Shown here: positions 1-6,182 of the stretch, in pieces | Position numbering within the stretch: the stretch's first letter is position 1 | How the letters are laid out: the number at the start of each line of letters is the position of its first letter | From: Candidatus Eiseniibacteriota bacterium | Lineage (GTDB): Bacteria > JAFGKV01 | Assembly (NCBI GenBank): GCA_025453925.1 | Contig: JALOPK010000094.1 | Coordinates: 1-10,088 of the forward strand | Length of the DNA: 10,088 bases | Direction of reading: 5' to 3' | Position numbers and translations under genes: made by a program | Notes under the pieces: model-generated | Told to the model about the DNA's origin: nothing | The model's database searches: none | The model's input: only the letters and a program-made list of their open reading frames with translations

Positions 1-604
1 AGGGTTTCTGGCTGAGCAACCGCTCGTGCTCGACGACCGCCCGCTGCTCCGGCGAGAGTACGGTCATTGGCCCCTGCCGGCCCGCCTGCAGTTCGGAGGC
101 GATCCGGCAGAACGCTTCAATCTCCGGGGAGGTTCCCCCGGCCGTGGCTTTCGCCTTCTTGGTCAACTGCTCCCGCCGCCGTTCCACGGTCTCGAGATCG
201 GCAAGGGCCAATTCCGTGTCCACGAGATGAAGGTCGGCCACGGGATTGGTCGAACCCCCCGCCCGCGCCACGGTGGGATTTCGAAAGCAGCGGACGACGT
301 GGAGAATCGCATCCACGTTGCGGATATCATCCAGGAAACGATTGCCGAGGCCCTCTCCCGCATGGGCGCCGCTCACGAGCCCCGCGATGTCGACCACCTC
401 CAGGGTGGTGGGCTTGACCTCCTCAGGCGAGAGAACAGCGGCAAGTCGCATCAACCGCGGGTCCGGGACGGGGACTGCCGCGATGTTTCGCTGGATGGTG
501 CAGAAAGGGTAGTTGTGCGCAGGCGCCCCCGCCGCCGTCAGGGCATTGAACACGGTGGTCTTGCCGGCATTGGGCAGACCGACAAGCCCGAGAGATGTGG
601 CCAA
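1..604 (-). CDS. ychF: Redox-regulated/ribosome-associated P-loop ATPase YchF (OLA1 family), 3' end cut by window edge
   Basis: This is the N-terminal 201 residues of a YchF/OLA1 protein; the family is usually about 360 residues, so the C-terminal part (rest of the G domain, TGS domain) lies off the left edge. Visible are the P-loop GLPNAGKT (residues 9-16), the G3 motif DIAGLV (72-77) followed by the family hallmark GAHAGEGLGNRFLDDIR, and a charged helical coiled-coil insertion from about 125 to 175. Family members hydrolyse ATP rather than GTP and bind ribosomes in the cytoplasm; the deciding NxxE motif is outside the window. I chose a TTG start because it is preceded by GAGG at a spacing of 6 and gives Met plus five residues before the first strand (LVGLP), exactly as in relatives. 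An in-frame ATG at 631 has no ribosome binding site and would add nine odd residues. It has its own promoter at 670-698. Confidence 0.95.
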   Translation of the reverse strand, partial: MATSLGLVGLPNAGKTTVFNALTAAGAPAHNYPFCTIQRNIAAVPVPDPRLMRLAAVLSPEEVKPTTLEVVDIAGLVSGAHAGEGLGNRFLDDIRNVDAILHVVRCFRNPTVARAGGSTNPVADLHLVDTELALADLETVERRREQLTKKAKATAGGTSPEIEAFCRIASELQAGRQGPMTVLSPEQRAVVEHERLLSQKP

Positions 605-669
605 GAAGCACCTCGAAACGCTGGCAAGCATTCGATCGACGGGGCAGAAGGGTATAGGGGAATCGCAGC

Positions 670-698
670 AAGATAGGCACGGGGCCGGCCATTGTCAG
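670..698 (-). promoter_or_regulatory. Sigma70-like promoter of ychF
   Basis: On the minus strand, CTGACA (698-693) and TATCTT (675-670) are separated by exactly 17 bases. Each hexamer is one or two mismatches from consensus. Transcription would begin near 663, giving a leader of about 60 bases to the TTG start at 604. It sits 11 bases past the stop of the upstream small gene, so ychF need not depend on read-through. Confidence 0.55.
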
Positions 699-4439: not shown

Positions 4440-6182
4440 ATGATCCCGAAGGGAGCCTCGAGACACGCGGGAGACGACGATTCCCCGCTCTCTGCCCTTG
4501 CCGTCGCAGCGCCGGGCCTGGGCGCCCTTCTGCGGCACGTCAGGCTCTTCTCGTCCGACGGCCCGGTGGAGGTTGCCGGGATACGGATCCGGCCGTCGAT
4601 GCCCGAGTCGACCGGTGAGGTCGGGTATGATGACCCCGCGGTGTATCGGAGGACCAGCGCGGTTGTCTACTCGGTGGCCGCGCTCCTCTCACTGATTCTC
4701 CGTCGCGTGGTCGTCACGGACGGGACCGGCGTCGAGAGGGAGATCGTGGGCTTCGCCTTTCGCGATCAAGCGGCCTGGCGGGAGAGGACACCGTACGACC
4801 CCAACGAGCTGCTCCAGTACGTCGCGGGTCCGTGCCGCATCGCCTGCGAGTTCTGCTACCTGAAGGGCAATCCGCCGGCCCTGCGCCGCATACACACCAT
4901 GATCTCCGATCGCGAATTCGCCTATCGTCTCGCCCTCTTCAACCATGGCCAGCGCATATTTCCGAAGTCCGTGCTCTCCACCGACGAGCAGACCACCAGC
5001 CCGCGGCTGCTCCCGGCTCTCCGGGCCGTCCGGGCGGTAACCGATGCGCCGGTCTTCATCGAGACCAATGGAGTGTCTCTGACCCGGAATCTGCTGGAAA
5101 GACTCGCTCTCGAGAAGCCGGTGTTCGTCAATGTCTCCGTGAACACCATGGACCGGCGGCTTCGATGGGATCTGATGCATGACCGGAGGCCCGGACGGGT
5201 ACGGCAGGCGCTGGAATTGCTGCGCGAGACGGGCATTCCTTATTCCACCAGCATAGTGCCGTGGCATGACATCCCTCTCGACGACGTTGAGGAGACAACT
5301 CGCCTCGCTGCCTCCCTCGGCGCGGGGCACATCCGTGTCCGGCTCCCGGGGTATACGTCGCATTTCGCCCCGGAGCAGCTCTTCGATCTGGACACCCTGT
5401 GGCCGGCCGTCATCGAGCGGCTGGCGCGGATCCGTCCCGAGGTGGGATGCCCGATTCTGGTGGAACCGGGGAAGTACGAGCAGCTGTACGCCTTTGACAG
5501 GTGGGAGCTTCCGGTCGTGCTGGGGGTAGTCCCGGGCTCGCCCGCGTTCGAGGCCGGCGTCCGACGCGGAGACTATCTCACCGCGGTGAATGGCATTCCC
5601 ATGTTCTGGCGATCCGATGGGTTCGGGGCTCTCGTGCGGCTCATGGTGAACCGCAAGGACCTGAGGATGCGCCTTCTGCGGAACGGCCAGCGGCTCGAGT
5701 GCGGCATCCGCTTCACCGAACGGGATGCATACCCCTACATGGCCGCTGACCATCGATCGCCCTACGGGATCTTCATGTGTGACGACATCGATCGCGACGC
5801 CATGAACCGGCTCAAGTCTTTGCTGGCGGACGCGAAGGCCCGGACGCCCGTGCTCGTGACGTCTCGGCTCATGGAGCGCTCGGCCCGAGACCTTCTGCGC
5901 ATGTTCGACGTGGAGAGGGGGTTCCCCACTCTCCGACTGGCGGTGATACCCAACCGCTACTTCGGAGGCAACATCTTCATGGGAGATCTCCTGGTCACGG
6001 ACGATGTGATCGGGTTCATCAGGGCGGAGGCCTCCCGCGGCGAGCGGCCGGACCTCGTAATCCTTCCCAGCTCAGCGTTCAATGAACACGGGAGGGACCT
6101 GGTGGGAGTCTCGTACCGGAGGATCGAGCATATGACCGGCGTCAGGGCAGTACTGCTGTCCACCCGGATGATCACGCAGTAG
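4440..6182 (+). CDS. Radical SAM protein with PDZ domain and DUF512-like C-terminus
   Basis: A 580-residue protein. Residues 1-125 are unassigned, with a hydrophobic helix at about 73-88. The radical SAM core begins at Cys132-x3-Cys136-x2-Cys139 (CRIACEFCYLKG), the site of a [4Fe-4S] cluster, and continues through FIETNGVSLT (206-215), NVSVNTMD (231-238) and STSIVPWHDIP to about 345. A PDZ domain follows at about 358-422 (LGVVPGSPAFEAGVRRGDYLTAVNGIPM). The tail (about 440-578) has GGNIFMGDLLVTDDVIGFI (509-527) and PDLVILPSSAFNEHGRDLVG, like the GN-FFG-VTV-GLLTG and closing segments of DUF512. Known DUF512 proteins place PDZ first, so this order is different. Substrate is unknown. GGAGG lies eight bases before the ATG; nadE ends 43 bases upstream, so cotranscription is likely. 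A periplasmic role is not suggested, as there is no signal peptide. Confidence 0.85.
   Translation: MIPKGASRHAGDDDSPLSALAVAAPGLGALLRHVRLFSSDGPVEVAGIRIRPSMPESTGEVGYDDPAVYRRTSAVVYSVAALLSLILRRVVVTDGTGVEREIVGFAFRDQAAWRERTPYDPNELLQYVAGPCRIACEFCYLKGNPPALRRIHTMISDREFAYRLALFNHGQRIFPKSVLSTDEQTTSPRLLPALRAVRAVTDAPVFIETNGVSLTRNLLERLALEKPVFVNVSVNTMDRRLRWDLMHDRRPGRVRQALELLRETGIPYSTSIVPWHDIPLDDVEETTRLAASLGAGHIRVRLPGYTSHFAPEQLFDLDTLWPAVIERLARIRPEVGCPILVEPGKYEQLYAFDRWELPVVLGVVPGSPAFEAGVRRGDYLTAVNGIPMFWRSDGFGALVRLMVNRKDLRMRLLRNGQRLECGIRFTERDAYPYMAADHRSPYGIFMCDDIDRDAMNRLKSLLADAKARTPVLVTSRLMERSARDLLRMFDVERGFPTLRLAVIPNRYFGGNIFMGDLLVTDDVIGFIRAEASRGERPDLVILPSSAFNEHGRDLVGVSYRRIEHMTGVRAVLLSTRMITQ

Follow-up and report, generated by a model that had tools for sequence, protein, structure and literature searches.

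A radical SAM protein subfamily with an internal PDZ domain and a predicted cobalamin-binding DUF512-type domain

The protein encoded at positions 4440–6182 of the window, the whole 10,088-nucleotide stretch of DNA analysed here, is predicted to be a B12-dependent radical SAM enzyme and has an unusual domain order. Sequence and model comparisons confirm the order N-terminal region, radical SAM core, PDZ domain and DUF512 domain, which is kept in the window protein and 32 further homologues. With a probability of roughly 0.55, the protein is a class 2 cobalamin-dependent radical SAM methylase (class 2 denoting a C-terminal, CFeSP-like cobalamin domain) in which the PDZ domain, placed between the core and the cobalamin domain, docks a polypeptide. 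The parts are known, and no description of this order, of the N-terminal modules N1 and N2 or of a mutase-linked radical SAM enzyme was found in the open-access literature.

Table 1 Features of the window gene and separate N1 frames of relatives
Feature	Residues	Coordinates	Strand	Basis
Whole gene, N1-N2-radical SAM-PDZ-DUF512 protein	580 aa	4440..6182	+	Pfam, family alignment, VIA-align, profile-profile comparison
N1 module, degenerate copy	~17-57	4488..4610	+	Family alignment; boundaries approximate
N2 module, homologous to N1	~66-113	4635..4778	+	hhalign; always fused to radical SAM core
Radical SAM core	~126-345	4815..5474	+	PF04055 132-289; fold match to 9cg2, Mmp10, SuiB
CX3CX2C [4Fe-4S] motif	C132/C136/C139	4833..4856	+	32/32 family rows covering motif
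Conserved acid, likely SAM-binding ('GGE'-like) position	E183	4986..4988	+	31/33 rows
PDZ domain, RseP/DegP-like	~355-447	5502..5780	+	PF17820; RseP PDZ profile match; VIA-align
Candidate PDZ carboxylate-binding loop	Y442-G443-I444	5763..5771	+	Alignment; family consensus HLGIIF
DUF512 / predicted cobalamin-binding domain	~448-576	5781..6167	+	PF04459 on isolated domain; hhalign
N-x-x-F-G-G-N-I-F-M-G-D-L motif	505-517	5952..5990	+	Profile alignments
Separate upstream N1 frames (relatives)		L028:1891-2160, L029:1188-1457, L030:3114-3368, L079:9047-9391, L080:4192-4476, L085:4784-5077		

The reading frame opens with ATG, and its GC content by codon position (0.67/0.46/0.81) is as usual for coding genes in this DNA. 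Pfam searches with the whole protein place the Radical_SAM domain (PF04055) at residues 132–289 (E = 4e-14) and PDZ_6 (PF17820) at residues 359–391 (E = 8e-9), both above cut-off; the former contains the CX3CX2C cluster site that the initial annotation had read at residues 132–139. The likely role of E183 in SAM binding is read from its position. The PDZ domain also matches the RseP PDZ domain in a profile comparison, and its candidate carboxylate-binding loop may be compared with L72-G73-I74 of csDUF512 from Clostridium sporogenes (PMC11659888).

The DUF512 domain (PF04459) is found at residues 443–564 of the whole protein with 23.5 bits, just below the gathering cut-off of 25 bits, and the isolated C-terminal piece scores 27.7 bits, above it. 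The score of the window protein thus ranges from 23.5 to 27.7 bits with the stretch used, and other family members score 20–23.6 bits in the genome search. This low score is best read as divergence of the domain and not as a different identity, because the isolated domain passes the cut-off and the C-terminal pieces of 27/27 family members match PF04459. In profile-profile comparison (hhalign) of the family with canonical DUF512 proteins, the C-terminal domain falls on DUF512 (probability 97.6%, E = 3.7e-12), and window residues 357–425 fall on the canonical N-terminal PDZ domain (target 14–78, probability 96.2%, E = 2e-9). As these are two separate matches, the changed order is not an error of domain boundaries, a concern attached to the original proposal that the PDZ domain sits between the core and a DUF512-like tail; both the position and the tail assignment hold.

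Fold comparisons agree with this order. The AlphaFold models of the full protein (pLDDT 55.5) and of residues 115–580 (pLDDT 58.8) were used for fold-level agreement only, and the placement of domains in three dimensions from either model was abandoned at these values. Foldseek searches with these low-confidence models return both solved DUF512 structures as best matches (PDB entries 9cg1 and 9cg2), with the methyl-coenzyme M reductase arginine methylase Mmp10 (PDB entry 7qbs) among the next best. In VIA-align comparisons with the model of pLDDT 58.8, the best whole-chain match around the PDZ domain is pfDUF512 from Pyrococcus furiosus (9cg2; model positions 14–462, Z-score of 13.6), Mmp10 covers positions 25–462 (Z-score of 13.0) and RseP PDZ1 covers positions 241–334 (Z-score of 11.0), equivalent to residues 355–448 of the protein.

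DUF512 has been shown to bind cobalamin (Wang et al. 2024, PMC11659888), which is why the window protein is predicted to be a B12-dependent radical SAM enzyme, class 2 by its C-terminal DUF512-type domain. With SAM, four DUF512 proteins turn OHCbl into MeCbl, and they also cleave it to 5'-dA (PMC11659888, PMC13331322); a 2025 review groups DUF512 proteins with Mmp10 as class 2 cobalamin-dependent radical SAM enzymes (PMC13331322). In sequence-profile alignments, window residue L517 aligns with L366 of csDUF512, the leucine under the corrin ring (its number verified by counting), and is invariant in 27/27 members. This lower-face leucine and an N-x-x-F-G motif are common to the window protein and to csDUF512 and canonical PF04459 proteins.

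Published DUF512 members carry the PDZ domain first or have none: csDUF512 (9cg1) is PDZ–radical SAM–DUF512 and pfDUF512 is radical SAM–DUF512 (PMC11659888). csDUF512 and the canonical PF04459 proteins are alike in carrying all three domains within one chain, and their N-terminal PDZ domain completes a short radical SAM barrel, whereas in the window protein the PDZ domain stands between the two halves. The csDUF512-type feature, a PDZ domain directly before the cluster loop, is absent here, the PDZ domain following the core. pfDUF512 shares the order of core then cobalamin domain and the F-F-G-G-N-I motif, but lacks PDZ, N1 and N2 and has only weak sequence similarity to the window protein. 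Mmp10, a polypeptide methylase, likewise has a radical SAM domain followed by a C-terminal four-stranded cobalamin domain, but has no PDZ domain and no significant sequence match. By profile score (134 bits), the nearest relative without a PDZ domain is the PDZ-less sister encoded in genome G040 (L154:9221-10357), which also lacks the N modules.

A scan of species genomes recovered five relatives of the window protein, and a search profile was built from seven sequences. This profile gave 13 matches, 12 of them true homologues, in 245 genomes from the class of a Dehalococcoidia metagenome-assembled genome (MAG), and 20 matches, 19 of them true, in 297 genomes from the phylum to which G043 belongs (labelled Deltaproteobacteria; NCBI lineage Myxococcota). 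Among 386 broadly sampled genomes there were five matches, including the window's own protein and one PDZ-less sister. A match in G219, weak and limited to the radical SAM domain, was rejected as a homologue. In an alignment of 33 rows, the order C-X3-C-X2-C, PDZ, G-G-N holds for every protein covering the motifs. Conservation of the three cysteines and the tail motif among proteins with this order had been proposed as a check in the initial annotation.

The homologues with an internal PDZ domain differ from the canonical proteins in further respects and are, by these sequence features, a distinct subfamily, as had been suggested from the unusual order. Canonical DUF512 proteins score 90–254 bits against PF04459 (in a separate sample) and the subfamily below 32 bits. 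The distance from the first cysteine to the GGN motif is 264–276 residues in 23/24 canonical proteins (in the remaining one an additional match lies upstream), 377–409 residues in the subfamily and 283 in the PDZ-less sister. A D[DE]D[YF]R sequence (the DxD motif; DDD in csDUF512-type proteins, where it follows the cluster loop) lies within 45 residues of the cluster motif in 22/24 canonical proteins versus 0/33 of the subfamily, and N1 and N2 are absent from the canonical proteins.

The 125 extra N-terminal residues noted in the initial annotation are present, but the region is not without assignment, as it holds two homologous copies of one module of about 42 residues (N1 against N2: probability 97.3%, E = 2e-11, hhalign). 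Six genomes from the Dehalococcoidia class (Table 1) have N1 as a separate frame of about 85–115 codons directly upstream of the enzyme gene. In the deep branch G846 it is a gene of its own immediately downstream (L152:9820-10062), and elsewhere in the family it is fused to the enzyme; in the window protein it is barely recognisable. This split-or-fused pattern suggests that N1 is a small subunit. The one stand-alone N1 searched against Pfam (L152) had no match. In-frame TGA and TAG codons in the G146 and G160 homologues, considered as recoding, fall in the stretch that separates the stand-alone N1 gene from the main gene and resemble normal stop codons.

In about 18 loci from two phyla, comparison of gene neighbourhoods places the homologue beside, or directly between, the genes of an acyl-CoA mutase large subunit (PF01642) and a B12-binding small subunit (PF02310). 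These mutase-linked loci, from Deltaproteobacteria and Dehalococcoidia, also carry genes for CoA-transferase III, enoyl-CoA hydratase and MmgE/PrpD. The linked mutases are of a long type (about 590 residues) and, by alignment, retain the arginine that in methylmalonyl-CoA mutase binds the distal carboxylate; this suggests that the long mutase acts on a dicarboxylic acyl-CoA. The long mutase occurs in 11/12 Dehalococcoidia-class genomes with the enzyme versus 10/233 without (Fisher p about 1e-12) and in 16/19 G043-phylum genomes with the enzyme versus 14/278 without (p about 1e-15), p-values that overstate the association, since linked mutases served to build the mutase profile and the genomes are related. 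The direct adjacency of the genes is independent of that profile. The long mutase with a separate B12-binding subunit was seen at L017:5323-11435, L067, L068, L069, L075, L076 and L082-L086, and some of these operons also carry FabK-like and AMP-ligase genes. No cobalamin riboswitch was detected at the gathering threshold near the gene in eight loci (window and relatives).

As a class 2 methylase, the enzyme would act as follows. Cob(I)alamin, held base-off above L517, would be methylated by SAM, and a second SAM would be cleaved at the [4Fe-4S] cluster to give a 5'-deoxyadenosyl radical. This radical would take a hydrogen from the substrate, and the resulting carbon radical would receive the methyl group of methylcobalamin (C-methylation). 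The PDZ domain, just ahead of the cobalamin domain, would meanwhile hold the C-terminus of a polypeptide partner. A peptide or protein is the most probable substrate, by analogy with Mmp10; this is favoured because of the PDZ domain, the Mmp10 parallel and the gene context of the PDZ-less sister and of the G846 copy. The gene of the sister has a PqqD gene on one side and a SPASM radical SAM gene on the other, and genes for a SPASM radical SAM protein, an MFS transporter and a peptidase-like protein precede that of the deep-branching, PDZ-bearing homologue of G846, settings typical of peptide maturation. We infer, as the initial annotation had proposed, that the PDZ domain binds a partner peptide and that the enzyme modifies this partner, which is consistent with the gene context.

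Two further loci descriptions concern these branches. In the G040 locus (L154:8897-11482), the gene for the PDZ-less radical SAM-DUF512 protein comes after that for PqqD and before a SPASM radical SAM gene, and HPr-kinase-like and PRMT-like genes follow. This is possibly a peptide-maturation cluster of an undescribed kind in which a class 2 cobalamin radical SAM enzyme takes part. The G846 locus (L152:4372-10062) encodes SPASM radical SAM, MFS transporter, peptidase-MA-like, radical SAM-PDZ-DUF512 and N1 proteins, with no mutase, and likewise resembles a peptide-maturation locus.

A possible, though doubtful, alternative is that a small acyl-CoA is methylated or rearranged as a pathway step of the mutase/CoA-transferase/enoyl-CoA hydratase/PrpD operon, the PDZ domain only holding the enzymes together. 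The operons of the relatives do consist of CoA-thioester enzymes and could point equally well to an acyl-CoA substrate, and five to six Dehalococcoidia have an enoyl-CoA hydratase gene immediately before the homologue, including cases with no neighbouring mutase; however, the PDZ-less sister and the G846 copy sit among peptide-maturation-type genes instead of CoA enzymes, and CoA-pathway genes are missing from the neighbourhood of the window copy, as is a mutase from its genome.

For the favoured reading of a polypeptide methylase, the acyl-CoA mutase is the leading candidate for the substrate in the relatives with mutase operons. The full proposal, that this B12-dependent radical SAM enzyme C-methylates the B12-dependent mutase, with the PDZ domain on the mutase C-terminal tail and a small N1 subunit helping, is speculative and on balance unlikely. 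A C-terminus of the form [ST]-x-hydrophobic is found in 13/18 adjacent versus 6/37 non-adjacent long mutases (naive p = 1.4e-4), an association confounded by shared ancestry; among phylogenetically independent pairs, two are for, one is against and five are uninformative, which is not significant. PDZ docking on the mutase tail is on that account kept as a lead only. If true, one B12 enzyme would modify another, and Mmp10-like protein methylation would extend outside methanogenesis.

The role of the relatives may not be transferable to the window copy, given its divergence (about 30–38% identity, no C-terminal cysteine and a degenerate N1) and the lack of a mutase in its genome. No PF01642 mutase was found in this genome (a MAG 82% complete), on which ground the copy is classed as a divergent orphan. 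Its neighbours, encoding NAD+ synthase, a UbiE-like methyltransferase and CDP-alcohol phosphatidyltransferase, give no functional hint. That it is a decaying or re-purposed orphan which has lost the family reaction is rather improbable. Such a fate would fit its branch, which at 3.09 is the longest among PDZ-bearing rows of a tree that gives it no firm position, the missing mutase and degenerate N1, the replacement of the C-terminal cysteine (C-x-x-I-[YF]-D in 28/30 family rows) by threonine at residue 575 (6162-6164), and the absence of a homologue from the one same-genus genome; against it, the 580-residue frame is intact with coding-like GC, and the three cysteines, E183, the PDZ core, GGN and L517 are all retained. 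Least probable is a mutase accessory factor (repair, reactivation or cobalamin delivery) that uses radical SAM chemistry for cofactor repair and is no methylase: several loci (L017, L067-L069 and L086) do have the gene placed after that of the large mutase subunit and before that of the small one, and enzyme and mutase are both B12 proteins, but long mutases occur without the enzyme in the same groups (the 14 and 10 genomes above) and homologues occur with no mutase nearby or, as for the window, in the genome.

Cobalamin binding is predicted for about 6,000 DUF512 enzymes, and a substrate is known only for the related Mmp10. The role of the PDZ domain in DUF512 enzymes is an open question in both the 2024 paper (PMC11659888) and the 2025 review (PMC13331322), the latter calling it unknown and reporting apparently no other radical SAM enzymes with a PDZ domain. 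The subfamily adds a second placement and shows that the PDZ domain is a movable module, and the mutase operons and the separable N1 subunit provide concrete partners for testing.

Two minor observations concern the window and its genome. A YchF-type GTPase fragment lies at window positions 2-694 on the reverse strand, and in L029, L079 and L080 the gene next downstream of the homologue, on the other strand, also encodes YchF, probably by coincidence. The window genome further encodes a canonical PDZ-radical SAM-DUF512 protein (L001, G000:C444:1-3472; ORF 704-2023, 115.7 bits), and therefore both architectures coexist in one organism.
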